DNA of 34,321 bases from Chloroflexota bacterium (GTDB lineage Bacteria > Chloroflexota > Anaerolineae > Aggregatilineales > Phototrophicaceae). Both the position numbers and the translations under genes were made by a program. The notes beneath the pieces were generated by a model. That model saw nothing but the letters and a program-made list of their open reading frames with translations. It had not been told where the DNA came from and did no database searches. Location of the stretch: the NCBI GenBank assembly GCA_028875185.1, contig JAPPFH010000081.1:1-34321 (forward strand). Reading direction: 5' to 3'. Shown piece after piece: positions 3,932-32,469 of this stretch. Every line of letters begins with the position of its first letter. Position 1 is the stretch's first letter.

Positions 3932-5035
3932 ATGTACAAGTCGTTTCGGGTCAAGAATTTCCGTTGCTTCAAAGACTTGCAGATCAACGATCTGGGTCGA
4001 GTGAATCTGATTGCGGGGAAGAATAATACTGGCAAGACGGCGCTGCTGGAGGCGGGACTCGTTCTATCGGCGCCACTAACGCCAAATCTCCTTCTGGAAT
4101 TACTAAAGTCGCGTGGATTCATCGACTCTGACAAAAACAGGCGCGACGTTTGGCAGCAAATATTTTATGGGTTGGATACGACATTCGAAATCAACTTGTG
4201 CGGAATTGAGCAGGAGAATGATGGGCGAAGCCGCCGCTTGACCATTTTAGAGTTCGAATCCATGGAAAGTAACCCTGAGCACTTTGCAAACTACATTCAA
4301 AGAGCCAAGGAAATTGGATATTTCCGCGATGGATATATTGATGCCCGAGGCACGTCGTTGCTCGTATATGCATTTTGCTACCAAGATTCTGAGCCGGAAC
4401 TAGATTACATCTACCTGGCTTCAAAACCTGAATTGCCATTCTTTACAAAAAACTATGCTGACATAAAGTATGTATATTTTCCGGCAGAAGCGCGGCGAAA
4501 TCCTCAAGACAGGGCAGACACTTTCAGCGCTTTAGAACGGCATGGTGGATTGCCGAAGTTGATTAAGTACCTAGTTGCTTTCGAACCAGACTTGTCTGAC
4601 GTGCGATTGCAATCGCTATCGGGCAACTTAACAATTTGGGGGCGTGTTAATTCGCGTCAGTTACCACTAAGACTAATGGGAACAGGACTAAATCGATTTG
4701 CCGATATTGCCTTGGCATTTCTTGTTGAAAAGCCTCAAGTCATCTTCATCGACGAAATCGAAAACGGCATCCATCATTCCGTGCAATGCAAAGTATGGCA
4801 GGCCATCGGTAGGCTAGCGCGCGAGTTGGGCATCCAAGTCTTCGCTACCACGCACAGCCTCGAAATGATCCGCGCCGCTTACGAAGCATTCGAAAAATGT
4901 GGCGCTCAGGACGACTTGCGTTTGCATCGCCTGGACAGAGATGCGGAAACTGGCGACATAGAAGCGGTAACATATAAAAGGCGCGGACTAGAAGCCCTTG
5001 CCACCTTCGACTTTGATTTTGAGGTGCGCGGGTGA
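3932..5035 (+). CDS. AAA family ATPase (RecF/OLD-like, AAA_15/AAA_21 type)
   Basis: This 367-aa protein has the SMC/RecF-like N-terminus (SFRVKNFRCFKDLQI) and Walker A AGKNNTGKTALLEA (lysine at 35). A Walker B VIFIDEIENGIHHS lies near residue 270, followed by the switch histidine in FATTHSLEMI. The family includes the ATPase halves of two-gene anti-phage systems such as PARIS and Septu-like pairs, and OLD nucleases, where the ATPase senses or clamps the target and activates a partner effector. The gene overlaps the next one (GTGA at 5032-5035), so the two are translationally coupled and very probably form a complex. The DNA is more A/T-rich than the flanking tsaD and membrane-protein genes, suggesting acquisition. 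It has its own nuclease-less architecture, so catalysis likely resides in the partner. Confidence 0.88.
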   Translation: MYKSFRVKNFRCFKDLQINDLGRVNLIAGKNNTGKTALLEAGLVLSAPLTPNLLLELLKSRGFIDSDKNRRDVWQQIFYGLDTTFEINLCGIEQENDGRSRRLTILEFESMESNPEHFANYIQRAKEIGYFRDGYIDARGTSLLVYAFCYQDSEPELDYIYLASKPELPFFTKNYADIKYVYFPAEARRNPQDRADTFSALERHGGLPKLIKYLVAFEPDLSDVRLQSLSGNLTIWGRVNSRQLPLRLMGTGLNRFADIALAFLVEKPQVIFIDEIENGIHHSVQCKVWQAIGRLARELGIQVFATTHSLEMIRAAYEAFEKCGAQDDLRLHRLDRDAETGDIEAVTYKRRGLEALATFDFDFEVRG

Positions 5036-5709
5036 AGCCGAAAATTCCAGAGGGCAAAACGCGGCTACTTTTGGTCGAAGGCGCGGAAGACCAAGAATTC
5101 TTCATTCAATTGGGCGGCCGCCTCACGTCGACTGATGATTGGCTTGTCCAAATCAACCGATACAGAGGCAGGTCGGAACTTGAAGACTTTTTGATAGCCG
5201 TGGCAGGGCATCCGAGATTTGGACAAGTTGAGACAATTGGCATCGTCCGCGATGCTGACTTCAACACTGACGCATTTCAAAGCGTGCAAGGCGCCGTCCG
5301 CCGCGCCAATGCCGAGATTCAGCAGGCTTTGCCGGTGCCAGAAAAAGTGATGGTCATGGCGGAGGGCAGCAAGAATGTTATCGTAATGATAATGCCCTCT
5401 TATGAGCGTCAAGGCATGCTGGAAGATTTGATCATGGACATCTTCCAAAGCGATCCGATCACGACTTGCGTAGATGCTTACTTCAACTGCATCCGCAAGC
5501 ATGGCATAGCCATCCTCGAGCATAAACTCTCCAAGGGCAGACTACGCGCTTTTGTCACCGGCAAGAACGTCAGCAACCAAGCCAACGGCGATGATTCGGA
5601 AAAGCTCTACTTGTCAGACGTCTTTCACATGAGTTGGTGGAAACCAGAGTTCTGGGACCATGAAGCCTTCCTTGATGCCCGTGAATTCCTTGCACTCCTC
5701 ACCAACTAG
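5032..5709 (+). CDS. DUF3226 / TOPRIM-like effector partner
   Basis: Starts with GTG inside the stop codon of the ATPase. The 225-aa protein begins with the TOPRIM-type first motif LLLVEGAEDQEFF (acidic E in VEG) and has the second acidic motif GIVRDADFNTD (D-x-D). It then shows the MPSYERQGMLEDLIMDIF segment typical of DUF3226 proteins. TOPRIM folds in ATPase-partnered systems (AriB of PARIS, OLD C-terminal domain) are Mg-dependent nucleases; by analogy this could cut DNA or RNA once the ATPase is triggered. Family membership is assigned from these motifs by eye; nuclease activity is inference. There is no signal peptide or membrane segment. No methylase or further gene follows in the operon, as a membrane protein with its own ribosome binding site begins 63 bases later. 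Confidence 0.8.
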   Translation: MKPKIPEGKTRLLLVEGAEDQEFFIQLGGRLTSTDDWLVQINRYRGRSELEDFLIAVAGHPRFGQVETIGIVRDADFNTDAFQSVQGAVRRANAEIQQALPVPEKVMVMAEGSKNVIVMIMPSYERQGMLEDLIMDIFQSDPITTCVDAYFNCIRKHGIAILEHKLSKGRLRAFVTGKNVSNQANGDDSEKLYLSDVFHMSWWKPEFWDHEAFLDAREFLALLTN

Positions 5710-8357: not shown

Positions 8358-9428
8358 TCAACTATTGGGCTTGATTGCGACTCGGATCGCTTTGCCAGAT
8401 TGCGCAACAGCAAAGGCTGTATTGATTTCATCCAATGAATAGTATTCTGAGACCAACTCTTCAAAAGGAAATTCGAGACGATACCGCGATACGAAGTCCA
8501 CTGCCTGCAATAGATGTTTAGGTTGATAATTGTGAATCCCGTGAAGCGTTAGCATCTTTCGCACAATTATCGCGCCATCAACAGTGAAATTTGCATCAGG
8601 GTAGACAAGTCCCGCAAGGATATAGTGTCCACCAATTTGCAGCGCATCAATTCCGAATGCGACACAAGCGGGGGCGCCACAAACTTCTATCACAATATCG
8701 ACTTGCAATTCATCAGCTAGCGCTTCAAGGTCCGCTTCTTGCAGAGCAATCGTCCGGGTCGCTCCAAATTTCTCAGCGATGGCTAGTCGTTTGGTGTTGA
8801 AATCCGTAACGATAATTTCTGAACATCCGGCTTTACTCAGGACAGCGCAGGCATAGATGCCAAGCATACCGGCGCCCTGTACTAAGGCGCGTTCGACGTT
8901 CTTAAGTTGTATCCGATCCACCGCTTGCATAATTGTCGCCAAAGCGCAGTTTATGGGGGCGGCTTCCGCATCAGTTATGTTGTCCGGTAATCGCAAAATT
9001 TTTGTTCCCGGGCGTAGATAAAGGTGTTGTGCGAAGCCACCATTGAGATGGGGACGCGCTTCTGAATTGGCATGACCATATTTAAAACTATGAATGCATT
9101 TTTGGCTGAGATCACGTTCAGCGCAAAACTCGCAATCGCCACAGGAAGTGGTTAACCCCCAGGTAATGCGGTCACCGATAGACAGTTTTTCGCCATTTAT
9201 ACTTTCTACGGTTTTGGCGCTCATTTGTACGATTTCGCCGACGATTTCATGCCCGAGTATGCTTGGCGCGTCACCGCCACGCCGGCCAAGAACCGTGTGC
9301 AAATCTGATCCGCAGATTGTCGCCAGCCGCACCTTAGCCAGAATAGCGCCACTCTCCAGCGATGGCGTCGGGTATTCACGAATCTGCAGGGGTTGATTCG
9401 GTTCGATAAAGATTGCAGAACGCACCAT
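8358..9428 (-). CDS. Zinc-dependent alcohol dehydrogenase, phosphonate-associated type
   Basis: Medium-chain dehydrogenase. Numbered from the ATG at 9428, it has the catalytic zinc ligands C39 (ICGSDLHT) and the GHEIVGE box at 60-64. The structural-zinc cysteines lie in CGDCEFCAERD (about 96-111), and a Rossmann motif sits at GAGMLGIYACAVL. The ATG at 9428 is preferred over 9467 because AGAGGA lies just upstream and homologues start MxRSAIF-like. A subfamily named for occurring beside phosphonate genes (putative phosphonate catabolism associated alcohol dehydrogenase, TIGR03366) fits well. It would oxidise an alcohol, perhaps a hydroxyalkylphosphonate, with NAD(P); the substrate is not established. 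It is last in the phn operon, 137 bases after phnY, and noticeably more A/T-rich than the genes outside the island. Confidence 0.87.
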   Translation of the reverse strand: MVRSAIFIEPNQPLQIREYPTPSLESGAILAKVRLATICGSDLHTVLGRRGGDAPSILGHEIVGEIVQMSAKTVESINGEKLSIGDRITWGLTTSCGDCEFCAERDLSQKCIHSFKYGHANSEARPHLNGGFAQHLYLRPGTKILRLPDNITDAEAAPINCALATIMQAVDRIQLKNVERALVQGAGMLGIYACAVLSKAGCSEIIVTDFNTKRLAIAEKFGATRTIALQEADLEALADELQVDIVIEVCGAPACVAFGIDALQIGGHYILAGLVYPDANFTVDGAIIVRKMLTLHGIHNYQPKHLLQAVDFVSRYRLEFPFEELVSEYYSLDEINTAFAVAQSGKAIRVAIKPNS

Positions 9429-9565
9429 CGCGCATCCTCTTCTATTTTGCCTCACATGCTGTGTCAATTATACAAACTTCCTAAAAGACTCGGCTAAACC
9501 TTGAAACTAGCCTCAGCATATTATTCCAGGTTAGGGGCTGGACCAAGTAAAGCTGCTGCGTGACC

Positions 9566-11014
9566 CTAAGCTGGCCAGGGCAGCGAATAAGTTTTTACGT
9601 TGGTAAAGAATTTCATTGCCTCCAGCACCCCTTCCTTGACGCCATTGCCCGAATCTTTGATGCCGCCAAAGGGCGACATCTCTATCCGGTAACCCGGCTG
9701 CTCCCAGATATTCACCGTACCGACATTGAGCCCTTCGATATAGTTAGTGGCGCGAATCAGATCATTGGTGCAGACGCCCGCGGAGAGACCGAACGGGGTG
9801 CCGTTCGCAATCTCCATTACCGCCGCGTCATCATCCGGAACGCGTACAATCGGCGCCACGGGGCCAAAGGTCTCCTCGATCACCAGTTCACAGTTATGGG
9901 GAACGTGATCAACCACAATCGGCGGCAGCAGCGCGCCGTCCCGACCGGGGTGGTAGAGAATTTTCGCGCCCAGCTTTTCAGCGTCAAATACGCGGCATTC
10001 GAACAATTCGGCCGCTTTGGCGCTGATTACACAGCCAAGCTGAGTCTCTGGGTCCATGGGGTCGCCATAGCGGATGGTCTTGGCTTTTTCGAGGATCAGC
10101 GGAACAATTGCCTCGGCAACGCTTTCCTGAATCAGAATGCGTTTGACCGCGGTGCAGCGCTGCCCCGAATTGCCGGTCGCGCCGGCCACTGCAATGGCAG
10201 CGGCTTTGTCGAGATCTTCACCACGCAGATCATTCAGAATGATCAGTGCGGAATTCCCGCCTAGCTCTAAGGCAGTGCGCTTGTAGCCCGCTTTTTCCGC
10301 AATCATCTTGCCGACAGGCACACCGCCAGTAAAGGTGACGATGTCAATGTTTGGATTGGTGACCATTTCGTCGCCAATATCCTGGGGCCAGCCGGTGACT
10401 ATCTGGAACATCTCAGGCGGCAAGCCCGCCTCAAAGAGAATGTCGGCCAGCGTGATAGCGGTTAACGGGGTCAGTTCGGTCGGCTTGCAGACCATGCAGT
10501 TATTGGTGGCAATCGCCGGAGCGACTTTATGCGCCACCATGTTGAGCGGGTGGTTAAAGGGCGTGATCGCGGAAATGGCGCGGACCGGTTCACGTTTGGT
10601 GAAGATCTTGCGACTTTTGCCATGTGGCGTCAGATCACATGAAAAGATCTGCCCATCATCCTGAATGGCAAGTTGGCCCGCCAGCGTGAACACATCGTAG
10701 GAGCGGCCCGTTTCGTAGAGAGCGTGTTGCTTGCAGATGCCCAGTTCAAGCGTCAGCCAGTGAGCGATCTCTTCCCGACGTTCCCGGATCAGTTCGGCCG
10801 CGCGAAAGAGGATCTGTTGCCGTTCATACCGCGTGAGCTTGGGCTGATAGGCGGCGGCAATCTCAAAGGCGCGCTGGGCATGTTCCGCCGCGCCTGCCGG
10901 AACCGTAGCAATCACCTCATGGGTTCGCGGATACTCAACCTCAACCACCGCGTCGGCATAGACCTTCTCCCCGCCAATGCGCATGGCTTCATGGCGGATT
11001 TCGTGCTCTGACAT
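9566..11014 (-). CDS. phnY: Phosphonoacetaldehyde dehydrogenase PhnY
   Basis: NAD-dependent aldehyde dehydrogenase that oxidises phosphonoacetaldehyde to phosphonoacetate. Seen in the sequence: the substrate/cofactor loop [39 protein letters not shown] and the general-base glutamate in ALELGGN. The catalytic cysteine is in [12 protein letters not shown], with ETFGPVAPI and [10 protein letters not shown] near the end. Length is about 482 aa, normal for the family. The ATG at 11014 is chosen because GGAG lies eight bases upstream; a longer frame reaches 11044. Substrate is assigned from context: it sits between genes for 2-aminoethylphosphonate transaminase and phosphonoacetate hydrolase, the classical PhnWAY arrangement. 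Related ALDHs (glyceraldehyde-3-phosphate or lactaldehyde types) are the alternative if context is ignored. Confidence 0.92.
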
Positions 11015-11053
11015 ATGAAAACTCCTGGCGCAATTAATATTCAATATTACTGA

Positions 11054-12238
11054 TTACAACTGCCCAGCGGCTTGCGCCGCATAATAGAACGCGTCAAAAT
11101 TGCGCAGTTCGGGCGCGGACTGCAAATCAATCTGGCGGTTGACGATGAAAGGCACCTCTTGCTCGGTCAGCCCGCCATGACTGCGCAAGGGTTCTTTCAG
11201 CGCCGCCAGATCATGCCGCTCTTCCGAGGCGCCAATAGTCATGTTTTCATCTGAGATGATGACAATATCGCCGATACGGTCGGCGGGCAATTCAAATCGG
11301 CGCGCCGCCTCTTCACGGTCGATCACAACCATGATGCCATCAATGGCTGCGAGACGCGCCATGATGCTGGACCCATCAGCGCCATCGGGAAGATATGCGG
11401 TGGCGAACGATCCAAGCGCACCGTGATGCACGACGTACGGATCGGTGATGGGTAAGATGACGCGCGCCTTGGCCGCGCCAACCCACTCATCAAGAAAATC
11501 CTGGAGATAGACCACTGCGGGAGCGCCGTTGGCGTCATGCTTTGGCTTCATCCCGTGATCGGCGGTCAGAACGAGCGCTGCGCCCATCGCGTCCAGTTGA
11601 CCGACATAACCATCGATCATGGTATAAAAATCCTTAGCGCCTTGCTCTTCGGGAGCGAATTTATGCTGAATATAATCGGTCGTTGAGAGATACATCAGAT
11701 CCGGCGTCCACTCTTTGAGCAGCTTCACACCAGCCGCCAAAACAAATTCCGATAGATCGCCTGAATAGACTTCCGGCACTGGACGGCCGAGCCAGGCGCT
11801 GGCGTCATCAATCCCATTGGCTGCTTTGGCGGCGATATCCGCGCGTTCAGATGAAAAGCAGATTGCTCGATCTTCATCAAATGAGAGACCGGCGCCCAAG
11901 AGGGCGCGGAGCTTGTCCTTTGCAGTGACGACAGCGACGCGCGCCCCCGCCTCATAATATTTCGAAAACAATGTCGGGGCGCGTAGAAACCTGACATCGT
12001 TCATCATCACTTCTTGGCCAGTTTCCGCTTCATAGAGGTAGTTGCCGCAGATGCCATGCACGCTCGGCGGGCGACCAGTGGCAATCGACATGTTGTTTGG
12101 ATTGGTAAAGGATGGGATCACCGAATGCGCAATCCGGTCAGTGCCTTTCGCGCGCATTCTAGCGACATTCGGCATTCGTCCGTCGGCAATCGCAACATCA
12201 AGATAGGCCGGCTCGCACCCATCGAGGCAGATGACCAC
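11054..12238 (-). CDS. phnA: Phosphonoacetate hydrolase PhnA
   Basis: Alkaline-phosphatase-superfamily C-P hydrolase that splits phosphonoacetate to acetate and phosphate using two zinc ions. Numbered from the GTG at 12238, the residues are D6 (CLDGCEP), the nucleophile T45 in SFTNPNNMS, D188 and H192 in TTDYIQHKF, D227-H228 in LTADHGM and H354 in RSHGG. All expected metal ligands are present, so it should be active. The GTG start looks too late: the reading frame upstream continues for 21 codons with a family-like N-terminus (ANSRTYAALRTCAVV), preceded by a good ribosome binding site but an ATA codon (see the 12239-12301 entry). It lies 39 bases upstream of phnY. Confidence 0.93.
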   Translation of the reverse strand: MVICLDGCEPAYLDVAIADGRMPNVARMRAKGTDRIAHSVIPSFTNPNNMSIATGRPPSVHGICGNYLYEAETGQEVMMNDVRFLRAPTLFSKYYEAGARVAVVTAKDKLRALLGAGLSFDEDRAICFSSERADIAAKAANGIDDASAWLGRPVPEVYSGDLSEFVLAAGVKLLKEWTPDLMYLSTTDYIQHKFAPEEQGAKDFYTMIDGYVGQLDAMGAALVLTADHGMKPKHDANGAPAVVYLQDFLDEWVGAAKARVILPITDPYVVHHGALGSFATAYLPDGADGSSIMARLAAIDGIMVVIDREEAARRFELPADRIGDIVIISDENMTIGASEERHDLAALKEPLRSHGGLTEQEVPFIVNRQIDLQSAPELRNFDAFYYAAQAAGQL

Positions 12239-12301
12239 GGCACAGGTCCGCAGCGCGGCATAGGTTCGACTATTGGCTTCAACAGGAGATGAGATTGGTA
12301 T
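12239..12301 (-). other. phnA: Probable true N-terminus of PhnA, starting at an ATA codon
   Basis: Frame-continuous with phnA. AAGGA at 12310-12314 (minus strand) is eight bases before ATA at 12299-12301, which is followed by the codons PISSPVEANSRTYAALRTCA and then the annotated GTG. The extension contains the NxRTY segment usual near PhnA N-termini. Either ATA is used as a start, the ATG has mutated, or the base at 12299 is a sequencing error. Confidence 0.6.
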
Positions 12302-12351
12302 GAATCGTTTCCTTCGCGTTATTGTACTGGACTTAATCTTCGCCTAAATAT

Positions 12352-13476
12352 CTATTTCTCCGCTAATTCAATTTCCATTTCAGCGAATGTTGCCGCTACC
12401 GCATCTAACAAACCGCGCATATGCGAGGCATTCATCCGCCCGATATTACCGATACGGAAACAATCTGCCTGAGTCAATTTACCCGGATAAATGACAAAGC
12501 CTTTATCGCTTAAGCTGTTGTAAAAAGTCTCAAAATTGAAATTAGGATGCTCAGGATAAAGGAAGGTCGTGATGATATAGCTCTGGGTGTCTATATCAAG
12601 ATAAGGTTTTAGACCAAGTTTCTTCATGCCCTCAATGATGATTTTGTTGTTTTCAGCATAACGTTTGCCGCGCCCTTCAACACCGCCTTCTGCTTTTATT
12701 TCGACCAGCGCTTGATGGAATGCTAAGATCGCTTGAACCGGGGGGGTGAAGCGAAATTGCCCATTTTTCTCTAGACCTTGCCATTGCGCCAATAAATCAA
12801 GGCTCATACTGCGAGCATAACCTTTTGTTCGCAGAAAAGTTTCTTTGTGAGCAATTACAAAGGAGAAACCCGGAAGACCTTCAATACATTTATTCGCTGA
12901 AGATACCAGAAAATGAATTTGTGAATCGACCATATTAATCGGAACAGCGCCAAAACTACTCATAGCGTCTACAAAGTAAACATGATTGTATTGCGCAACA
13001 AGTTTGCCAATAGCTTCAATTGGATTGAGCAGACCTGTTGTCGTCTCGCAGTGGATCACCGCGACATGCGTAATCGCCTCATTTAAGCGGAGCGTCTCTT
13101 CAATTTCCGTTAAGTCAGGAACGCTATTTTCAGGGTAGCTCAGTTCAATCGTCGGAATATGCAAGGTTTCTGCCATAGCAGCAATACGCCGGCCATAGGC
13201 GCCATTGACAATTACGAGGAGCTTGCCATTTTCTTGTGGAATCACAGAAGAAATGACTGATTCCACACCGAATGTTCCACTGCCTTGCATCAAAATCGCA
13301 GTGTAGTCCTCATTGCCTTGCAAGCCACCCAAATCGAGTAGCATTTGCCGAATTTCGCGTACAACTTGAATAAAGCCGGTATCACGCGAACCCAAGTCAC
13401 GACCTGAAGCCGCTTTTACAGTAGCGCTTGTTGTCAAGGGTCCCGGTGTAAATAGCAATTTATCTTGAGATGCCAA
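12352..13476 (-). CDS. phnW: 2-aminoethylphosphonate:pyruvate transaminase PhnW
   Basis: Class V PLP aminotransferase that converts 2-aminoethylphosphonate plus pyruvate to phosphonoacetaldehyde plus alanine. Diagnostic stretches are LLFTPGPLTTS near the N-terminus, the substrate-loop MQGSGTFGVE, the cofactor aspartate D170 in YFVDAMSSFG and the Schiff-base lysine K196 in SSANKCIEGLPGFSF. The RFTPPVQ loop and the C-terminal FRIGNIGRM also fit. Length is 374 aa, standard. The start codon is TTG at 13476, with GGAGT six bases upstream; no ATG or GTG is available in frame. First gene of the phn operon, 50 bases before the PhnA ATA. Visibly more A/T-rich than the genes outside the island. No phnX (phosphonatase) is present, so its product must go through PhnY and PhnA. 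Confidence 0.95.
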   Translation of the reverse strand: MASQDKLLFTPGPLTTSATVKAASGRDLGSRDTGFIQVVREIRQMLLDLGGLQGNEDYTAILMQGSGTFGVESVISSVIPQENGKLLVIVNGAYGRRIAAMAETLHIPTIELSYPENSVPDLTEIEETLRLNEAITHVAVIHCETTTGLLNPIEAIGKLVAQYNHVYFVDAMSSFGAVPINMVDSQIHFLVSSANKCIEGLPGFSFVIAHKETFLRTKGYARSMSLDLLAQWQGLEKNGQFRFTPPVQAILAFHQALVEIKAEGGVEGRGKRYAENNKIIIEGMKKLGLKPYLDIDTQSYIITTFLYPEHPNFNFETFYNSLSDKGFVIYPGKLTQADCFRIGNIGRMNASHMRGLLDAVAATFAEMEIELAEK

Positions 13477-13516
13477 TGCGCGACTCCAAATATGTAATCA
13501 AATTAACTTTGTACAA

Positions 13517-13545
13517 ATTCTAAGCAAATACGCCTGAATAGTAAA
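13517..13545 (-). promoter_or_regulatory. Putative sigma-70 promoter of phnW
   Basis: Minus strand: -35 TTTACT (13545-13540), a 17-base spacer and -10 TAGAAT (13522-13517). Expected start is near 13510, leaving a leader of about 35 bases with GGAGT before the TTG at 13476. Confidence 0.5.
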
Positions 13546-13583
13546 TATGTCCATTGAAGCTTGACTAATTCCACACCAAAGTA

Positions 13584-13605
13584 AGTGAAGACGCAAGATA
13601 TGCTT
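13584..13605. repeat. 22-bp direct repeat, right copy
   Basis: Identical to 8029-8050, same orientation, 5.56 kb apart; lies just outside the phnW promoter. Confidence 0.85.
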
Positions 13606-13854
13606 TAACGGGCGGGGGAACAAGGCATAATGAATGGCGCGGCTAAGTGACCAGCTTCTAGGGCATCATCGATCTGGCCGCCATCTTTCTATTCTGATCC
13701 ATGCAGCGTCTAGCGTTCGCGTCGTGCGATTGCCGCTCGTGCTGAGCATCAACCGTCTCCTAAAGATCAAGCGTTACAGCGACGCGCTTATCAGTCCAAG
13801 TATCACAAGCATTGCGCCAGCGTTGGCGCCTGTCAACGACTCCATATCCCCCTG

Positions 13855-13863
13855 TGATATACT
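13855..13863 (+). promoter_or_regulatory. Putative extended -10 promoter of the methyltransferase-nuclease gene
   Basis: TGATATACT gives TG, one base and TATACT. The transcript would start near 13870 and carry a 105-base leader, whose arms CACCGACC (13875-13882) and GGTCGGTG (13912-13919) can pair and enclose a smaller ACCCT/AGGGT stem. Confidence 0.45.
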
Positions 13864-13974
13864 GAACGCGCCCCCACCGACCAACACCCTCCCCGAAGGG
13901 TCTGTGCCAGCGGTCGGTGTCTACGCGACCTACGCGCCCCCAAAATGAGGGAGGGACATTCGTAAGGAATACCC

Positions 13975-15726
13975 ATGAAAAACCGACTCTATTACGGCGA
14001 CAACCTGGAAATCCTGCGCAACCGCGAATACTTCCCCGACGAATGCGTCGACCTCATCTACCTCGACCCGCCCTTCAACAGCAACCGCAATTACAACGTG
14101 CTCTTCAAGTCGGAGAGCGGCGCCGACAGCGAAGCGCAGATCACCGCCTTCGAGGACACCTGGCATTGGGGCGAAACCGCCGAAGCGACCTACGACGACA
14201 TCATCATGAACGCGCCGCACAAGGTCGCCACCGCCATTGAGGCGCTGATGAACCTGATCGAGCGCAACCAGATGATGGCGTATTTGGTGATGATGACCGC
14301 GCGGCTGGTCGAGCTGCACCGGGTCTTGAAGCCGACCGGCAGCTTGTATCTGCACTGCGACCCGACCGCGAGTCATTATTTGAAGATTGTGCTGGATGCG
14401 ATTTTTGGGCCTGAAAACTTTCGCAATGAGATTACTTGGCAGCGTACCGGCGCGCACGATTTGGGAGCGAAGCAATGGCCCGCTGTCAGTGACGTGATCT
14501 TGATGTATAGCATGTCAGACAATCGGACTTGGAATAGAGCTTATGCCGACATCAATGGCGGTGAGCGGATAAAGGGCTTCCCTCATATAGATGAACGCGG
14601 CGCATATGCCACTCGTGACATGACAGGCGGTAAAGCTGGCGGCGCAGAGGCTTATCAGGCTTGGCGCGGTAGAGCGCCAAGCAGTGGTCGTGCCTGGGCC
14701 TTACCAGGGTATCATCGATTCCCCGTTTGGTTGCGGGAACTGTTGCCGAGCGAAGATGACTGGATAAGCCTCGGCATTCATGCGAAGATGGACGTATTGG
14801 GCAGTCTAGATGCGATACATTGGCCAGTCAAAGACGATGGTATGCCAAGACTCAAGTACTACTTTGATGATAGTCAAGGTATTCTGATTGGGGATAACTG
14901 GACGGACATTTCACCAATCGGGGCCCACGCCAAAGAACGCCTCGGATACCCGACCCAAAAACCGGAAGCCCTGCTCGAGCGCATCATCCGCGCCTCGTCG
15001 AACGAAGGCGATGTCGTGCTCGATCCCTTCTGCGGCTGCGGCACCGCCATCGCCGCGGCGCACAAGCTGGGACGGGGCTGGATCGGCATCGACATCACCC
15101 ACCTCAGCATCGCCCTGCAAAAGTATCGCCTGCAGGATATGTTCGAGTTGGTCTCGGGGGCCGATTACGCGGTCATCGGCGAGCCGGCGACGGTGGAAGG
15201 CGCGCGCGAGTTGGCGCAAGATTCCGCCAACGAAGGCCGCTACCAATTCGAGTGGTGGGCGCTGTCGCTGCTGCGGGCGAAACCTGTCGGCGGCTCGGCG
15301 GGCTCGCGCAAAGGCAAGAAAGGCGCCGATCAAGGCATTGATGGCGTTATCAACTTCTTTGATGAAGACGAAGCGGGCAAGAAGAAGCCACAGAAAGTGG
15401 TCGCGCAAGTCAAGTCGGGCAAGGTGAATTCGGGGCAGGTGCAGCAATTGAAAGGGGCGATGGAGAATGCGGGCGCGGCGATCGGCGTCTTCATCACGCT
15501 GGAGAATCCGACGGGGGCGATGACAAAAGAGGCGCTGGCGGCGGGTTGGTATGAGTCGCAGGCTTGGGGGAAGAAGTATCGGCGTGTGCAGATATTGACG
15601 ATTGGGGATTTGTTCGCGGGCGCGGGAGTGTCGATGCCGCCGCAGCATGGGACGCTGGCGCGGGCGAGTCGCTGGAAGCGGGGCGGTGTGAGCGAAGATG
15701 GGGAGAGTCAGCGGGATTTGATTTGA
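13975..15726 (+). CDS. DNA methyltransferase fused to an Mrr-type restriction endonuclease domain
   Basis: The N-terminal 400 residues are a beta-group amino-methyltransferase, with catalytic DPPF at 31-34 first and the AdoMet-binding DPFCGCGT (D350 onward) after the target-recognition region. The N6-adenine or N4-cytosine choice is open. The C-terminal part (about 420-530) begins [11 protein letters not shown] and carries [12 protein letters not shown] (D456) followed by VVAQVKSGK (Q478-x-K480). That is the D...QxK form of the PD-(D/E)xK site seen in Mrr. One 583-aa chain therefore appears to modify and cut DNA, or to cut DNA according to its methylation. Start: AAGGA seven bases before the ATG. 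The recognition region (about 14400-14930) is less GC-rich than both ends. An OLD-family nuclease gene follows after 109 bases. Confidence 0.88.
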
Positions 15727-15733
15727 GGGGGGG

Positions 15734-15756
15734 GCTTTTGCTACAGAGGCACAGAG
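15734..15756 (-). repeat. CTCTGTG...CTCTGT intergenic repeat
   Basis: Minus strand reads CTCTGTGCCTCTGTAGCAAA. A member of a small dispersed family also seen at 17776-17807, 25719-25751 and 29401-29440. Confidence 0.5.
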
Positions 15757-15762
15757 TTAGTG

Positions 15763-15790
15763 TTGACAAATACACTATGCAAGATAATGA
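15763..15790 (+). promoter_or_regulatory. Weak putative promoter of the OLD-family gene
   Basis: A consensus -35 TTGACA at 15763-15768 lies upstream of the A/T-rich run GATAATGA (15783-15790). The -10 spacing is imperfect (14 to 16 bases), so the second gene may have its own promoter besides read-through from the methyltransferase. Confidence 0.3.
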
Positions 15791-15835
15791 TTAGCCCATA
15801 TTTTCTAAGTGTTCAATTCCTGACTCAAGAGGCAA

Positions 15836-17752
15836 ATGACGAGCATGATCAAGCTCAAGAATGTAACCATAAACAAGTACAAATGCATCGAGACTGAGCA
15901 GAGCTTTGATGTTGAAGACGATGTCACGGTGCTCGTCGGTAAGAATGAATCAGGGAAGTCCGCCATTCTTGAGGCAATTTCAAAGAGCAACTCATTCTTT
16001 GGTGATCGCTTTGACATTATGACAGATTATCCGCGAAAGGAAGTAACGAGATTCCAAAGACGCCAAGATGATATAACAGTAATTAAATGTGACTACACTT
16101 TGGCCGAGAAACTGGTCAAGCAGATTCAAGAGGATGTCGGAACCGAGTCGTTTGTCAAGTCCGATATTCTCCACGAAACTAGCTATCGAGCTGGAAGCAG
16201 ACACCAGAAAGACATTGACGTCTCCTTGTCCGCCTTTTTGGAGTACAAGTGTGGACAATTCACATTTGAAGATGAAACATTCTGCAAGCGCATAAGGGAA
16301 ATTGAAACGCAACAGGATCTCCAGTCATTGCGCAATGACTTCCAAAGCGACGCACAACAGGAATTTCTAGACAGACTTGCAACGTATTTGCCTAGCGAAA
16401 GCGATGACTTACAAACGGCATTACGAAAATATGTGTTCAACAAATGGATAGATCGTCACCTGCCAAAGTTTCTCTACTACAATGATTACTATAAACTCGA
16501 CTCGGACATAGATATCCGGAAAGTTCAGCGCAATGAAGGTGAAGAGAATAGCCTAAAGACCGCGAAGGCTTTGTTTGATCTCGCGTATATCAAGATTGAC
16601 CGCTTCCTTGAGACCCGAGACTATGAGACATACAAGGCGCAGTTAGAAGCGACAAGCAATGAAATTACTGACATTCTGTTTGAATATTGGCGAACCAACC
16701 AGAATCTCAAAGTAGTATTTGATGTCGAGAGACCGGAAAGCGACTATCACAGTCCGATTCTCAAGATTAGGCTTGAGAATACCAAATACGGTGTCACCTT
16801 GCCTCTCGCCAGCCGAAGCAGAGGCTTTAATTGGTTTTTCTCATTTCTTGTGTGGTTTAGCAAAATTCAAGAGGATAGGAACAACCAATATATCCTATTG
16901 CTGGATGAACCAGGGCTAAATCTCCACGCCTCCGCACAGAAGGATCTTCTACGGTTCATTGAGGACCTTACAAGCAACGAGGAATTCTCAAACAACTTTC
17001 AACTAATCTACACAACTCACTCAGCCGCCATGATTGAGTCAAATAAGCTGCAACGGGTGAGAACTGTTTTCGAAAGTGACGAGGGTACGCGGATATCGGA
17101 TGCCGCAACAGAAACGGATCCGGACACGTTGATTCCCCTGTATGGCGCACTCGGTTACGACATTGCTCAGAATCTGTTCATCTCGACAAATAATCTCCTG
17201 GTGGAAGGTCCATCGGACTTAATATATTTGACAGTCATGTCAGCTCTTTTGGAAAGTAAGAATCGGACGAGTCTCCGCGACGATATTGCAATAGTTCCAG
17301 TGGGAGGTGCGGACAAAGTTGCGACGTTCATTGCACTAATACGAGGTCAAGAGTTGAACATTGTTTGCCTATTGGACACCTTTTCTAATCCGTCCAGCAA
17401 GCAGCGGTTAGATGACATGGTCGAGGGCAAAATCACCGGAACAAGGTACGTAAAGTATTTTCACCAATTCTTGGGCGCGGGCAGACGTGAGGCAGATATT
17501 GAGGACCTGTTCGAACCAGAGGAGTTTCTTTCGCTGTACAACGACACTCTGCATTTCAACCTAGGAGTAAAAGAATTAGATCAGTCTTTAAGCAGAATTG
17601 TTGAACAGATTAGAGCGATTCAAGGTAAGTTCAACGCACATTACCAAGTTTCGAAGAAGTTCGCAGAGCGGGCCGACGACGAAGGTTTCGTTAGCGAAGC
17701 TACATTGGAGCGCTTTGAGAAGATGTTTCAAGCCATCAACAAGCTCTTTTAG
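15836..17752 (+). CDS. OLD-family ATP-dependent endonuclease (AAA ATPase plus TOPRIM)
   Basis: A 638-aa protein with an SMC/RecF-like ATPase. Walker A is VGKNESGKSAILEAI (lysine 41). A long helical insert follows, then the signature-like SRSRGFNWFFSF, Walker B YILLLDEPGLNLHASAQ (about 352-368) and the switch histidine in YTTHSAAMIE. The C-terminal TOPRIM domain starts NLLVEGPSD (about 450), continues with PVGGADKV and has an aspartate in CLLDTFSNPSS (about 511). The second acidic residue of a usual DxD is replaced, so metal binding may differ. OLD nucleases act in anti-phage defence (P2 Old, Gabija GajA). It follows the methyltransferase-nuclease gene in the same direction. Clearly more A/T-rich than its neighbours, suggesting horizontal acquisition. 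ATG at 15836 or 15845; AGAGG lies just upstream. Confidence 0.88.
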   Translation: MTSMIKLKNVTINKYKCIETEQSFDVEDDVTVLVGKNESGKSAILEAISKSNSFFGDRFDIMTDYPRKEVTRFQRRQDDITVIKCDYTLAEKLVKQIQEDVGTESFVKSDILHETSYRAGSRHQKDIDVSLSAFLEYKCGQFTFEDETFCKRIREIETQQDLQSLRNDFQSDAQQEFLDRLATYLPSESDDLQTALRKYVFNKWIDRHLPKFLYYNDYYKLDSDIDIRKVQRNEGEENSLKTAKALFDLAYIKIDRFLETRDYETYKAQLEATSNEITDILFEYWRTNQNLKVVFDVERPESDYHSPILKIRLENTKYGVTLPLASRSRGFNWFFSFLVWFSKIQEDRNNQYILLLDEPGLNLHASAQKDLLRFIEDLTSNEEFSNNFQLIYTTHSAAMIESNKLQRVRTVFESDEGTRISDAATETDPDTLIPLYGALGYDIAQNLFISTNNLLVEGPSDLIYLTVMSALLESKNRTSLRDDIAIVPVGGADKVATFIALIRGQELNIVCLLDTFSNPSSKQRLDDMVEGKITGTRYVKYFHQFLGAGRREADIEDLFEPEEFLSLYNDTLHFNLGVKELDQSLSRIVEQIRAIQGKFNAHYQVSKKFAERADDEGFVSEATLERFEKMFQAINKLF

Positions 17753-17755
17753 ACG

Positions 17756-17779
17756 GAGGGGTAGCTATCACTACCCCTC
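17756..17779 (+). terminator. Hairpin after the OLD-family gene
   Basis: GAGGGGTAG, loop CTATCA, CTACCCCTC: a perfect 9-bp stem starting four bases after the stop codon. There is no T-tract, so termination would not be a textbook intrinsic event. Confidence 0.5.
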
Positions 17780-17807
17780 TGCGCCCTCGGTGAACTCGGT
17801 GGTGAAA
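17776..17807 (+). repeat. CTCTGNG...CTCGGTGGTGAAA intergenic repeat
   Basis: Second member of the dispersed CTCTGTGGTAAA-like family. Confidence 0.45.
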
Positions 17808-17810
17808 TAA

Positions 17811-17838
17811 ACGGGCGAGCCACCGGCTCGCCCCTACA
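17811..17838. repeat. GGGCGA palindromic repeat
   Basis: Perfect arms GGGCGAGCC and GGCTCGCCC around a 3-base loop, followed by CTACA. It lies between the convergent OLD-family and portal genes and could also act as their shared terminator structure. Confidence 0.8.
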
Positions 17839-17844
17839 GCATAC

Positions 17845-19284
17845 TTAGTCCAGCCCCGCCCGCGCCCCAGCGAACACCGACTTCACACTCTCCCGATCGC
17901 GCGCGAACAGCAACCCCGCGCTGACCTCAAACGCCAGCTCGTCCGGCAGCGCCGTCACTTCGAAGGGACGCCCCTGCTCCGCCCGATCCAGCCGATTCAG
18001 CGCGAACCGCTCCCACTGCGCCAGTTCGTTTTCGACGGCTGATTTGTGGGCGGCTTCGGCCGTCGCCGTAGCTGGGCGTTTCAGCGAAACGCCCCTACCG
18101 TTGTCATCAACGGAAAGAGCCGGGGAGTGAGGGCTTACCGCCACATCCCCCCAAGCCACCGGCGGCAGCTGGAAGTAGTTGGCGCGCAGCTCATTGATGC
18201 TCAGCAACGGGTAAGCGGTGCGGATTTCTTCCAGGCGCGCTTTGGCGTCGGTCGGGCGGATGTCATCGTATTCGGCGACCAGGTCGTTGCCGTAGAAGGG
18301 CAGCAGCTCCTGGCTGATCTTCTGGGCGATGCGCACGAGCTTGGGGTAGAGCGTGCGCTCGATGAACTGGCGCTCGGCGACTTTCGCGTTTGCTTCCGTG
18401 GCGTTCTCGCTGACCAAGCCGACCGGGATGCCGAAGATATTGAGGATTTCATCGCGCTGGGCTTGGCGCCCTTGCAAGAAATCGAGATCGCTGTGGCTCA
18501 AGCCGATGTGCTGCCATTCGATGGCGCCGCCGCGCAGGAAAGCCGTCCGCCGCGACGCGCCGCCATAGTTGCTGCGCCATTCGCGTTTGAGGCGCTCGAA
18601 ATCAGTATCGCTGATAAAGTCCTTGATATTGACAATGCCGGCGGGCACGCCATTGTCTTGCCCGAAAGTGTTGCGATTCCAGTCGGCCATGTGCCGGTCG
18701 CTGAGCACGGCGCCGCGCGCGGCCGCGATGGGCGAGAGGCCGTAGAAGTCGTTATCCGGGTGCCAGCGGCGGAAGTGCAGCACTTCGATGGCGTCCAGCG
18801 GGATGCGCTCGCCGCCAATTTCGTAGAGGTATCCGGCGACGATGCGCCGCTCGTGGGGCACGATGGTCACGCGGTCGGGGCGCAGCAGCCAGATTTCGCG
18901 CGGCCGCCCGCGGCCATCGCCGGCGAGAAACCAGTAGGCGTTGCCATGCAGCTCAAGCGAGCCGATAGTCTGCTCGAAGAGTTCGAAGCGGCTGGTCAGC
19001 GGATTTGGGCGGCTCAGCAGCAGTTCCAGCGGGTGATTGTCGATGCCGATGCGTTTTTCGCCTTGGAGGCGATTGACCTTGAGCGGCACCAGCGCGCCCG
19101 CTTCGGCGATGCGGTTGATGGCGACATAAACCCAGGGCGAGCCTTCGTAGACGCGGGCGCTGTGGATATCGAGCGGCGGATTGAGGAAGTGGCTGTTATG
19201 CGCCGCCACCCGTTCGATATGCGGCGCGCGCGGGCGCAGTCGATCGCGGCGGGCGCGGAAAAAGTCGGTGAGCCAGTTGAACAT
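17845..19284 (-). CDS. Orphan phage portal protein, HK97 family
   Basis: A 479-aa protein with the HK97/lambda-like portal layout: an N-terminal basic region, then VYVAINRIAEAGALVPLKV (the WVYxAVNxIA pattern). It continues with NHPLELLLSRPNPLTSRFELFEQTIGSLELHGNAYWF, LRPDRVTIV, a FRRWHPDNDFYGLSPIAAAR segment and IFGIPVGLVSENATEANAKV. Portals form the dodecameric ring through which DNA enters a capsid. No terminase, protease, capsid or tail gene lies next to it; neighbours are cellular genes. Its GC content resembles the host, so it is an old resident, perhaps a gene-transfer-agent-like or co-opted piece, or the sole survivor of a prophage. AAAGGAG precedes the ATG. A palindromic repeat lies in frame within the gene at 18074-18098. 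Confidence 0.88.
   Translation of the reverse strand: MFNWLTDFFRARRDRLRPRAPHIERVAAHNSHFLNPPLDIHSARVYEGSPWVYVAINRIAEAGALVPLKVNRLQGEKRIGIDNHPLELLLSRPNPLTSRFELFEQTIGSLELHGNAYWFLAGDGRGRPREIWLLRPDRVTIVPHERRIVAGYLYEIGGERIPLDAIEVLHFRRWHPDNDFYGLSPIAAARGAVLSDRHMADWNRNTFGQDNGVPAGIVNIKDFISDTDFERLKREWRSNYGGASRRTAFLRGGAIEWQHIGLSHSDLDFLQGRQAQRDEILNIFGIPVGLVSENATEANAKVAERQFIERTLYPKLVRIAQKISQELLPFYGNDLVAEYDDIRPTDAKARLEEIRTAYPLLSINELRANYFQLPPVAWGDVAVSPHSPALSVDDNGRGVSLKRPATATAEAAHKSAVENELAQWERFALNRLDRAEQGRPFEVTALPDELAFEVSAGLLFARDRESVKSVFAGARAGLD
18074..18098. repeat. GGGCG palindrome inside the portal gene
   Basis: Arms GGGCGTTTC and GAAACGCCC with loop AGC, then CTAC as in the intergenic copies. It encodes part of the linker GRGVSLKRP without breaking the frame. 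Confidence 0.75.
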
Positions 19285-19368
19285 AGATCGCTCCTTTGAT
19301 TGGTCTGCGCGCAGGCTAACATCGGGCGCGCTTCAAAGGGCGACTATAGTTTCACGCTAACAACAATC

Positions 19369-19453
19369 TGTAGAGGCATTTCCCCGAAACGCCCTCTTGC
19401 CCATATCATGCCGTCTTTACCAATTGTAGGGGCGCCCTATCAGGTCGCCCGCC
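19369..19453. repeat. Two degraded GGGCG palindromes between portal and FHA genes
   Basis: An imperfect element at about 19369-19398 (GAGGC-TTTC/GAAA-CGCCCTC) is followed by TGTAGGGGCGCCCTATCAGG at 19426-19445, running into TCGCCCG. In the second, one arm base differs from perfect symmetry. Confidence 0.6.
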
Positions 19454-19482
19454 CGACCAATCCAACTGCGATGGTGGAAAGG

Positions 19483-20337
19483 TTAACAGCCAAATCCCAG
19501 CGCCAGCACGACATCGCGCACCACCGGCAGATCGCACCAGAGGTTGAGCACATCTATCAGCGTCAGGGCGATGCCGGCGAAGCAGACGAAGACCAGGATG
19601 AAGAAGACAAAACAGCCGAGTATTAGCCAGGGCGAGGTACCGCTGCTTTCTTCGCGCGCGGCGTAGGGGTCGTAATCATAACCGGGGTAGCCTTGCGGCG
19701 GCGCCGGCGGCATTTGCTGGTAGCCGGGCGCGCCTTGCTGCGGATAGTATCCGGCTGGCTGCTGCTGGGGCGCGGCGCCCGCTTCGGGATAAGCCGGGTA
19801 AGCGGGTGGCTGCTGCCCCACTGGCTCGCCCGCCGGCGGCATATTCGGCGCGTAGGGATCGGCTGGCGTCGGCGGCGCGCCCTGCAATCCGTAATCGACG
19901 GGCTGCGGCGTATAGGTCGGGCTTGGCGCTGGCGGCTCGGGCACGGGCGTCTCGGCCGGGGACGGGATTGCTGGCGGCAGCAGATCGGCCATATTGGAGG
20001 GGGCGCTCGGCGGGACTTCGGCGCCGGCGCTAACGGTCTCCAGCGCCAGGGTGACAGTCTCGCCCAAGCCGATCATGTCGCCATTCTGCAGCGGCGTCAC
20101 GCCTGAGACGCGCTTGCCATTGACGAATGTGCCATTGGTGGAGCCGAGGTCTTCGATGGTCAGGGTATCGCCCGCGCGCATCAGGCGCAGGTGATGGCGG
20201 CTGGTTTCGCGGTCGTTGAGCACGATGTCGTTGCTGATATCGCGCCCCAGAGAGGTGACGTCCTTGCTGACTTCAAAGGCTTGATTGGGCTGCGGGCCGC
20301 GCCGGACAACCAAACGGAAGTTGTCATTCTGCTGCAT
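19483..20337 (-). CDS. FHA-domain membrane protein
   Basis: Residues about 5-95 form a forkhead-associated domain: the motifs TSLGRDISNDIVL, DRETSRHHLRL and LGSTNGTFVNGKRV contain the conserved GR, SRxH and NG residues that bind phosphothreonine. A long Pro/Ala/Gln/Tyr-rich linker (about 100-225) leads to a single strongly hydrophobic segment (about 236-262, LILGCFVFFILVFVCFAG) near the C-terminus. The FHA domain is therefore probably cytoplasmic and tethered to the membrane. It would read Ser/Thr kinase signalling; no kinase gene lies in the window. GAGGAGAG is just upstream of the ATG. The final cysteine-containing tail is short. The 284-aa architecture is common in Chloroflexota and Actinobacteria. 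Confidence 0.88.
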   Translation of the reverse strand: MQQNDNFRLVVRRGPQPNQAFEVSKDVTSLGRDISNDIVLNDRETSRHHLRLMRAGDTLTIEDLGSTNGTFVNGKRVSGVTPLQNGDMIGLGETVTLALETVSAGAEVPPSAPSNMADLLPPAIPSPAETPVPEPPAPSPTYTPQPVDYGLQGAPPTPADPYAPNMPPAGEPVGQQPPAYPAYPEAGAAPQQQPAGYYPQQGAPGYQQMPPAPPQGYPGYDYDPYAAREESSGTSPWLILGCFVFFILVFVCFAGIALTLIDVLNLWCDLPVVRDVVLALGFGC

Positions 20338-20430
20338 GATTCTCTCCTCAGTCAGCGAGAAGCGGCGGTCGGCTGCGAAGTCGCTCTCGCCTGCAAAGGG
20401 CCGGCGCCCAAGAGCGATGATAGAACGATG

Positions 20431-20439
20431 ATTATAACA
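20431..20439 (-). promoter_or_regulatory. Putative extended -10 promoter of the FHA gene
   Basis: The minus strand reads TGTTATAAT: TG, one base, and a perfect TATAAT. It would give a leader of about 85 bases ahead of the ATG at 20337. No clear -35 is needed for this class. Confidence 0.5.
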
Positions 20440-20492
20440 AATGCTAGCGTGATTCTTTGCGCATTATACCTTGATTTCTTCGGCAATGAGAA

Positions 20493-21461
20493 TTATCGCC
20501 CATTGTTCGCGTCCCTGTTCTCGCGGCCAGGCGTGGGCAGCCAATGGTCGAGGAAGACCGCGCCGTCGATCCATTCGCCATGCGCGAGGATTTCCCAATG
20601 CAGATGCGGCGCGCTGCTGCGGCCCGTGTTGCCGCTCAAGCCGATGATCTGTCCGGCTTCGACGAATTGGCCCCGCTCCACCAGTGTTTCGGAGAGATGA
20701 GCGTAATTGGAGAACAAGCTGTAGCCGTGATCGATCATAACGAATTTACCGAAAATACCGGGAGCGAAGTCGGCGCGTACAAAATCGACTACGCCCGATG
20801 CCATCGCGCGAATCGGCGTGCCTTCCGGCGCATTCTGATCCCAGCCCATGTGGCGCGTTTCAAATTCGTCATTGAGCAGGCGGAAGGCGCCGAATGGAGA
20901 CGTCAACTCACTGTCGAGCGGCAGAGCGAAACCAGAAGCGTCCCATTGCGGCTCGGCCAAATGGTCTTCCATGATTGAGCGCAGGAGGGCGACGTGCGTG
21001 CTTTCCGAATTGTTGAAAACCAATTGGTCGGTCAAACCGGGGAGCGAAAAATTCTGAACGATGAAATTGCCGGGCGTCACGCGCAATCGCCGATGGAAGG
21101 TCGTAACGCCGGTGTCGCGTTGCGCGTGGACGAGCAGCTGATGCGTGCCCGGTACGCTGTCAACATTGGCGACGATGAGCGCGTACCAGGCGTCGCCGGC
21201 GATGTGAAAGAAGGGTATGTCTTTACGGCGGAAATCCGCGCGCGCGCCGGCGATGTCCGCGCCACTTAGCCGCAGCGCGCCGACGCCGCCCTGGGTCAAT
21301 GACGTGAAGTAGTATTCCAATTGAAGACCAGCGTCGACCTGCACCGAAGCCGGCATGGGACGCGGCTCGGGCTGAAAGACCGCGGTCCGCTCTGCCTGAG
21401 CCGACGCGCTGAATGCCAGCAGACAGAAGAGCGGAGCGACAATGGCGCGACACAGAATCAT
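20493..21461 (-). CDS. Secreted M23-family (LytM-like) metallopeptidase
   Basis: The ATG at 21461 is chosen because GGAG lies just upstream and the protein then begins with a clean signal peptide (LFCLLAFSASAQAE). The longer frame to 21707 overlaps the DinB-like gene and lacks a plausible N-terminus. The C-terminal third is a Gly-Gly endopeptidase domain: zinc ligands in HMGWD (H-x3-D), followed by GTPIRAMASGVVDFV, IDHGYSLFSNYAHL, and HLHWE with the third ligand. All needed residues are present, so it should cleave peptidoglycan cross-bridges in the cell wall. The N-terminal 150 residues form an extracellular beta-rich region of unknown role. Its start codon follows the DinB-like stop by one base (TGAAATG), so the pair is translationally coupled. 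Confidence 0.87.
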   Translation of the reverse strand: MILCRAIVAPLFCLLAFSASAQAERTAVFQPEPRPMPASVQVDAGLQLEYYFTSLTQGGVGALRLSGADIAGARADFRRKDIPFFHIAGDAWYALIVANVDSVPGTHQLLVHAQRDTGVTTFHRRLRVTPGNFIVQNFSLPGLTDQLVFNNSESTHVALLRSIMEDHLAEPQWDASGFALPLDSELTSPFGAFRLLNDEFETRHMGWDQNAPEGTPIRAMASGVVDFVRADFAPGIFGKFVMIDHGYSLFSNYAHLSETLVERGQFVEAGQIIGLSGNTGRSSAPHLHWEILAHGEWIDGAVFLDHWLPTPGRENRDANNGR

Positions 21462-21462
21462 T

Positions 21463-21978
21463 TCACTCTCCGCCCTCTGGCTCCTCGGCGGGCAATTGCC
21501 CTTCCAGCGCCGCGCGCATCTCGGCCAGATGGCGCTGCTCGTGGGCGATGCAAGCGCCGGCCACGCCTGCCAGGTCGTAATCAACGAAAAAGGGTGTGCT
21601 GAAAGTCGCCCCCATCTGATCGCCGGGAAAAGCCAATACCAAGCCGCGCAGTTGATCGCGGATGCGCGCCCACTCGCGCAACAGCTCGTCCCAGTTGCGG
21701 TCGGCATGATCGCGCCGACGCAATTCGTAGAGGGCGGTCGCGTCCATTTGTCCGCGAAGATCGACTGCGAAATTGTCGCCGCTTGCAGCGCGCTGCATCG
21801 CGGTGATCGTGTCGGCTTCGAGGGCGGTCAGGTGAATGATGAGATCGCGCGCGGTCCAATCCGAGTCGGCGTGCACCGGTAAATCCGGCGGCAGCGTCTC
21901 GACGAAGGCGCGCGCCGCCGCCCGCCCCGCATCCAGCGCGGCGATCAATTCTTGTTTGACTGGCGTAAAGTCCTTCAT
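21463..21978 (-). CDS. DinB/maleylpyruvate-isomerase-like four-helix protein
   Basis: A 171-aa protein from the ATG at 21978 (AGGCG upstream). The layout is that of the DinB/YfiT metal-binding superfamily: helix 2 contains DWTARDLIIHL, and near the C-terminus HEQRHLAEM supplies two more histidines. Such proteins bind one divalent metal through three histidines and often act as thiol-dependent S-transferases or isomerases; the actual substrate is unknown. It is the first gene of a coupled pair with the M23 peptidase. Confidence 0.8.
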   Translation of the reverse strand: MKDFTPVKQELIAALDAGRAAARAFVETLPPDLPVHADSDWTARDLIIHLTALEADTITAMQRAASGDNFAVDLRGQMDATALYELRRRDHADRNWDELLREWARIRDQLRGLVLAFPGDQMGATFSTPFFVDYDLAGVAGACIAHEQRHLAEMRAALEGQLPAEEPEGGE

Positions 21979-22150
21979 AAGGCGCCTCTCATGCGTATCA
22001 TAACGCAAAGTCGTGGCAAGTGGGGTTGTTGCGGGAGATTGGGCGGAACAATGTATCAATCTACGGGCGTCTTGACGACAGAACAGGTTTAATCCGATTG
22101 GCTAAGGATGCTTCGATGTGCCAATCACAAGCAACTCCAACTGCGAAAAT

Positions 22151-30833: not shown

Positions 30834-30849
30834 GGGATTTTCCTTAGTA

Positions 30850-30979: not shown

Positions 30980-31002
30980 GCGATTGGCCACGGGCGGATC
31001 GC

Positions 31003-32310: not shown

Positions 32311-32330
32311 GGGGGTCTCCTATAGACGTG

Positions 32331-32461: not shown

Positions 32462-32469
32462 GGCGACGA

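Follow-up and report, generated by a model that had tools for sequence, protein, structure and literature searches.

The window analysed here is a stretch of 34,321 nucleotides from a Chloroflexota genome (contig JAPPFH010000081.1, assembly GCA_028875185.1). It contains two adjacent genes, one for a 583-residue protein that joins a DNA methyltransferase to an Mrr-type nuclease (the fusion) and, exactly 109 bases downstream on the same strand, one for a protein of the OLD family. With a probability of roughly 0.7, the fusion is a self-sufficient restriction-modification (R-M) enzyme, and the OLD gene is one of several genes that occupy, in relatives, a slot between the fusion and a convergent portal gene of phage type. 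The original prediction, made from the letters of the DNA, had the two open reading frames (ORFs) and the gap between them right, and family matches bear out its view that both genes are defence-like. It had also united them in a two-gene defence module; the survey of genomes for conserved adjacency that it proposed found that the fusion usually occurs without OLD.

Among 34 genomes of the genus, at least 25 hold a full-length close fusion and 33 hold the portal gene, and a close OLD gene is present in 2 (G000, the genome of the window, and G020); a third, more distant OLD (32% identical) occurs in G001. The slot was compared in the 18 genomes that carry fusion and portal gene on one contig, a position referred to below as site 1 (the contig of G028 ends within the fusion). 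OLD lies beside the fusion in 2 of these 18 loci, leaving 16 comparable slots without it. The other contents are an FRG gene in three (G002, G011 and G009; PADLOC PDC-S15), RmrA in three (G023, G012 and G006), an antisense CapP-like peptidase with a helix-turn-helix (HTH) gene in two (G019 and G010), a TIR gene in G028 and a TIR-WD40 gene in G030, an antisense GHKL ATPase in G032, an antisense proteasome-like Ntn hydrolase in G013, and nothing recognised in four (G014, G021, G025 and G008). The slot genes of L089, L094, L077, L279, L095 and L270 take their names from similar genes of the same clusters that were scanned, and in G021, G008 and G031 the scan covered part of the ORFs. The interval from fusion to portal gene measures 1231–2894 nucleotides (17 loci) and has at least seven kinds of recognised content (18 genomes). 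It corresponds to a defence hotspot, in the sense of 1–5 kb of high turnover between two conserved genes, with the fusion border present in only part of the genomes.

As the gene contents show, slot genes can stand without an intact fusion. Remnants of the fusion persist at the site in G016, in G029 with a HEPN gene and in G017 with RmrA; G001 and G003 have the CapP-like gene and no fusion, and in G024, G031, G022 and G007 the portal gene is accompanied neither by a fusion nor by recognised cargo. Fusion and portal gene lie on separate contigs in G026 and G015, both with RmrA, and these were left out of the 18; the remaining genomes have another neighbourhood (G033), end at contig breaks (G004, G005 and G027) or give no portal match (G018). 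By this comparison the contents of the slot vary from one related genome to the next and include several genes predicted to be antiviral, and OLD is therefore probably an interchangeable occupant and not a fixed partner of the fusion.

Two observations on the slot and its border may be added. The RmrA-like HTH-peptidase gene (L076, L093, L270, L274 and L279) is preceded by a gene for a protein of 194–197 residues (cluster c79), a candidate toxin partner that gave no Pfam or PADLOC match in the single copy scanned. The portal gene adjoins FHA and M23 genes, no other phage gene was recognised among its scanned neighbours, and it is perhaps a domesticated or relic element.

In the fusion, Pfam recognises N6_N4_Mtase over residues 25–375 (2.9e-39) and Mrr_cat over residues 423–516 (2.8e-10). 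The motifs originally picked out, DPPF at 31–34, DPFCGCG at 350–356 and the nuclease residues Asp456, Gln478 and Lys480, were correctly placed, and every one of these residues is invariant in the 52 full-length fusions of the genus except Cys353, which is kept in 51. The set comprises 52 of 76 matched segments, from 25 of the 34 genomes, that cover query residues 1–582 and reach at least 500 residues; the remnant L083 is excluded and L205 (507 residues, possibly incomplete) is included. BpuSI, TspGWI and MmeI are examples of single-chain R-M enzymes of Types IIC and IIG. The presence of methyltransferase and endonuclease domains in one ORF, maintained in 52 of 52 sequences, gives the fusion the single-polypeptide architecture of Type IIC (PMC12707154, in part), and the protein is likely to be a self-contained R-M enzyme in one chain.

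The arrangement of its parts is not that of Type IIG enzymes, in which the nuclease comes first, then the methyltransferase and then a C-terminal specificity region (PMC4389544, in part); in the fusion the beta-class methyltransferase, inside which the variable region lies, precedes the Mrr-type nuclease. The methyltransferase resembles the Mod subunits of Type III systems, since EcoP15I Mod (4zcf_A) is the first Foldseek match and the putative target-recognition domain (TRD) is internal. Unlike a Type III system, it carries a fused nuclease, and no ResIII or helicase match was obtained in the fusion or in six neighbouring proteins scanned. The nuclease domain shares the Mrr_cat fold and the PD-QxK motif with Mrr and MspJI (PMC12707154, in part) and has Foldseek and VIA matches to MspJI and AspBHI. 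For reading DNA, Mrr relies on a winged helix and MspJI on an SRA-like domain; in the fusion this role would fall to the methyltransferase and its TRD. The methyltransferase forms the N-terminal part, which in the Type IV enzyme Mrr is the winged helix.

Relatives of the fusion are numerous. The window's own genome contains 35 matches, many of them covering the methyltransferase part only. One paralogue in that genome (L010 6376–8050, G000:C65) is split across two frames (172 and 407 residues), by decay or by assembly error, and in G016 an in-frame remnant (L083 6013–6564, G016:C69) has residues 1–97 joined to 483–583 in the genome itself. Full-length relatives with a C-terminal Mrr-like domain are found in phages (L290–L293) and plasmids (L294–L297), where they are annotated as DNA methyltransferases; OLD is not annotated in any of the eight regions. 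This suggests that, in temperate actinophages and plasmids, an Mrr-like domain is present at the C-terminus of proteins whose annotation names a methyltransferase only.

The central region of the fusion behaves differently from both catalytic modules. When the 19 site-1 fusions are set against the rest of the 52, a group that includes the unplaced loci L011, L195, L196, L198–L209 and L211, mean identities are 90.6 versus 84.1% in the segment called the N-part, 85.0 versus 77.3% in the C-part and 86.2 versus 70.4% in the nuclease, and 32.7 versus 31.5% in the TRD. Exclusion of two loci placed across contig breaks leaves these values nearly unchanged (90.8/84.1, 85.0/77.2, 86.4/70.4 and 33.5/31.6, respectively). 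The nuclease domain of the window's protein is closest to those of site-1 fusions (91, 89 and 88%), and its TRD to those of fusions at two other sites, L067 (83%) and L066 (77%). In these alignments, the central region is unrelated among fusions of the same site and alike across sites, with both catalytic modules constant, and it is likely to be the TRD. Seventeen site-1 fusions fall into six TRD classes (single linkage at 45%; L280, the locus whose fusion is truncated where its contig ends, counts for the slots and not for this set). The kind of slot gene is not tied to TRD class: FRG accompanies classes 0 and 4, RmrA classes 0 and 2, and the CapP-like gene classes 0 and 2.

Features of the fusion–portal region of the window (window positions)
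Feature	Position	Strand	Evidence
583-residue methyltransferase-Mrr fusion, predicted single-chain R-M enzyme	13975..15726	+	ORF, Pfam, residue conservation
Variable central region, residues ~165–320, predicted TRD	14467..14934	+	conservation profile of 52 fusions, segment identities
Mrr-type nuclease domain, residues 423–546, D456/Q478/K480	15241..15612	+	Pfam Mrr_cat, invariant residues, Foldseek and VIA matches
Short junction repeat (CACAGAG type) 3' of fusion stop codon	15741..15756	+	repeat comparison
Promoter-like TTGACA-N17-AATGAT 5' of OLD gene	15763..15791	+	consensus match only, 10/12 positions
638-residue OLD-family protein, AAA_15 ATPase and OLD-like TOPRIM with incomplete motif; slot gene	15836..17752	+	ORF, Pfam, Foldseek, residue conservation
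Perfect 9-bp inverted repeat (hairpin), arms 17756–17764 and 17771–17779, 6 nucleotides between arms	17756..17779	.	repeat search
Junction repeat 3' of portal stop codon, inverted relative to 15741–15756	17777..17811	-	repeat comparison
HK97-type portal protein gene, conserved slot border	17845..19284	-	Pfam, neighbourhood comparison

The OLD gene had been described as an ATPase/TOPRIM nuclease. The first part of that description stands, with Pfam matches to AAA_15 (1.2e-26) and OLD-like_TOPRIM (3.5e-07) and a first Foldseek match to T. scotoductus OLD (TsOLD, 6p74; E 4.5e-15); the nuclease label is unproven because the TOPRIM motif is incomplete. In TsOLD, metal A is bound by Glu377, Asp431 and Asp433, and metal B by Asp381, Ser478 and Glu480 (PMC7049728, in part). 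With ligands mapped by motif order, without residue-level superposition, the metal-A set retains Glu457 and Asp514 in 27 of 27 OLD homologues and lacks the Asp two residues past Asp514 in all 27, while the metal-B candidates Asp461 and Asp554-x-Glu556 are invariant (27 of 27), with Asp at the position of the TsOLD Ser. DNA cutting by this TOPRIM domain is thus doubtful. Since the phage phenotype of E. coli YbjD requires the ATPase and can dispense with the TOPRIM domain (PMC13261556, in part), an ATPase-driven role for the window's OLD is plausible.

The family is widespread: 7336 of 8000 candidate proteins scored at 1e-3 or better, and the named loci span many phyla. Like the Class 1 proteins P2 Old, TsOLD and YbjD, the window's OLD combines ABC ATPase and TOPRIM in one gene, with no UvrD-like helicase or reverse transcriptase beside it. 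It differs from them in the missing metal-A Asp and in its setting: its neighbours are the fusion and the convergent portal gene, and it sits in a slot for defence-type genes and is not isolated. Its assignment to Class 1 is therefore tentative. As to Class 3 (retron) OLDs, no reverse transcriptase was found in the scanned neighbours and there was no Rfam match at 10000–22000. A base composition distinct from that of the fusion, noticed at the start, is confirmed: in 500-base windows inside the genes the G+C fraction is 0.42–0.48 in OLD and 0.54–0.63 in the fusion, and it reaches 0.62–0.66 around the portal gene. The promoter-like site ahead of OLD is one of five such sites in the region, against 3.7 in shuffles; the alignment with G020 preserves TTGACA and most of the second hexamer. 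The hairpin thought to close the locus exists as a perfect inverted repeat and is not among the plus-strand terminators of a scan whose sites did not exceed shuffles (2 versus a mean of 4.2).

Several observations weigh against the reading of a self-sufficient fusion with an interchangeable neighbour. For the C-part, the nearest counterpart of the window's fusion is L066 (92%), from another site, and the tract of exchange may therefore continue beyond the TRD; equal TRDs are not significantly avoided within single genomes (P 0.115); and both OLD slots have fusions of TRD class 1, a class found at five site-1 loci. Others speak for a dedicated two-gene system, in which the fusion restricts and OLD cooperates, for instance through an attack on cut DNA or through death of the cell if restriction is blocked. 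The two genus genomes that have a close OLD carry the pair adjacent, on the same strand and about 110 nucleotides apart. G529, which belongs to a different family within the class, has a distant OLD (31% identical) 166 nucleotides upstream of a 54% identical fusion. Two further OLD/fusion pairs were seen, each from records with an equal longest contig (84,211 or 29,398 bp); one of their fusions belongs to TRD class 2 and the other has no class. The number of linked pairs is thus probably higher than the count of 2. Profile matches to beta-class methyltransferases in 80 named OLD-family loci are also enriched next to OLD (5 of 149 adjacent genes versus 2 of 785 others, P 0.0016, with one 76-residue piece, L122, dropped). 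Among 50 same-strand upstream neighbours of OLD, within 400 nucleotides, are four N6_N4_Mtase and three Type ISP R-M genes; the latter three probably correspond to the three Acinetobacter loci, whose genes encode 1456–1672 residues.

A dedicated pair is nonetheless unlikely. Besides the 16 slots that lack OLD, the fusion gave no BLAST match in 76 of the 80 OLD loci and matched in 4. In 13 further OLD loci, drawn from class and phylum samples in which 6 of 400 and 9 of 396 genomes matched at 1e-20 (own genome included), the fusion adjoins OLD in one, that of G529, where the gene order is the opposite, and the methyltransferase profile is negative in the other 12; L155 and L215 are one record, present in both OLD context sets. 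In the tree, the OLDs of G000 and G020 are on different branches and were probably acquired separately. The neighbourhood of OLD and methyltransferase is best read as a co-location that recurs in defence regions without amounting to a conserved module, although its frequency above chance makes a looser link possible. No paper on this pair appeared among the open-licence PubMed Central papers listed, which is weak evidence of absence.

The fusion might be mainly an orphan methyltransferase whose Mrr domain is inactive or serves in DNA binding. It scores for PF22722, "inactive restriction endonuclease" (9.6e-08), and, a further point against restriction by the fusion, the QxK motif reads SxK, with Ser in place of Gln478, in the eight distant phage and plasmid copies. 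Mrr_cat outscores PF22722 for the window's protein, however, and the three residues that never vary in the genus belong to PD-QxK, the motif with which active Mrr and MspJI nucleases carry out catalysis (PMC12707154, in part). An orphan is improbable. The chances are similarly slim that slot genes are mobile cassettes bounded by inverted copies of the junction repeat. A CACAGAG-type repeat does lie within 40 nucleotides of the fusion stop codon (5' arm) in 11 of 17 site-1 loci, before the portal stop codon (3' arm) in 12 and in both places in 8. At a fixed threshold it follows 8 of 18 site-1 fusions (P 1e-6), 2 of 18 other-site fusions (P 0.17), 9 of 16 portal genes (P 3e-8) and 10 of 270 other genes, an enrichment that is partly circular, since the consensus was built by eye from these loci. 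A 15-mer of the repeat, with at most one mismatch, has 12 copies in the 4.37-Mb genome, and its reversed control has none. The portal-side copy is present, however, in the fusion-free genomes G024, G031, G022 and G007, so the repeat does not mark a cassette end and is regarded as belonging to the site. Each of the two copies just follows a stop codon in the sense orientation, and the scan of slot genes recognised no recombinase. The repeat is possibly a homology patch at the site.

If the fusion is a self-sufficient R-M enzyme, one TRD would serve both of its activities. The beta-class methyltransferase would mark the host's own sites, probably at N6 of adenine in view of its DPPF motif, and the C-terminal Mrr domain would cut DNA with unmarked sites. 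The central region would be exchanged by recombination, each exchange shifting the specificities of methylation and cutting together, and slot genes would turn over as the conserved fusion backbone and the portal gene undergo homologous recombination. OLD, perhaps transcribed from a promoter of its own, would be an independent effector, driven by its ATPase and directed at the phage or at the infected cell. All activities named for this locus, from target recognition and methylation to cleavage and the killing of cells, are predictions from sequence. One chromosomal site would then vary immunity in two independent ways, through R-M target specificity and through the adjoining effector gene, and its natural combinations would be ready for testing the coupling of restriction and abortive defence.

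Parallels exist for both kinds of variation. In H. pylori, the TRDs of Type III enzymes pass between genes that are not orthologues (PMC3983042, in part), and the antiviral hotspots of P2 and P4 are likewise small slots of high turnover between conserved genes; in P2 the slot lies next to the portal gene gpQ and may contain old-tin (PMC9122126, in part). The present slot differs in that it is chromosomal, in a Chloroflexota genus, that its portal gene has no other recognised phage genes nearby, and that it is flanked on one side by a predicted R-M enzyme whose specificity would be exchangeable. By analogy, the locus appears to combine a P2-like portal-side hotspot with Type III-like TRD movement at one chromosomal site. 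The analogy with PARIS goes further: slot genes (OLD here; FRG, TIR, RmrA and HEPN elsewhere) might be exchangeable back-up guards: restriction by the fusion would come first, and the guard would fire when a phage anti-restriction protein blocks the fusion. This seems a long shot, as does the part of it in which a single site recombines both what is recognised (the TRD) and how the infected cell dies (the slot gene).

Elsewhere in the window, a second candidate defence locus at 3932–5709 (plus strand) encodes an ATPase (PADLOC PDC-M38A, AbiLi-like) whose gene overlaps that of a DUF3226 protein (PDC-M38B); it is found at the same place in five relatives, about 76% identical in two and 38–42% in three. 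A phosphonate catabolism cluster at 8358–13476 (minus strand) comprises an HpnZ-like alcohol dehydrogenase, phosphonoacetaldehyde dehydrogenase, phosphonoacetate hydrolase PhnA and 2-aminoethylphosphonate transaminase; PhnA and PhnW have no cluster mate among the regions compared. Three tandem ADP-ribosylglycohydrolase paralogues occupy 29529–33783 (minus strand).

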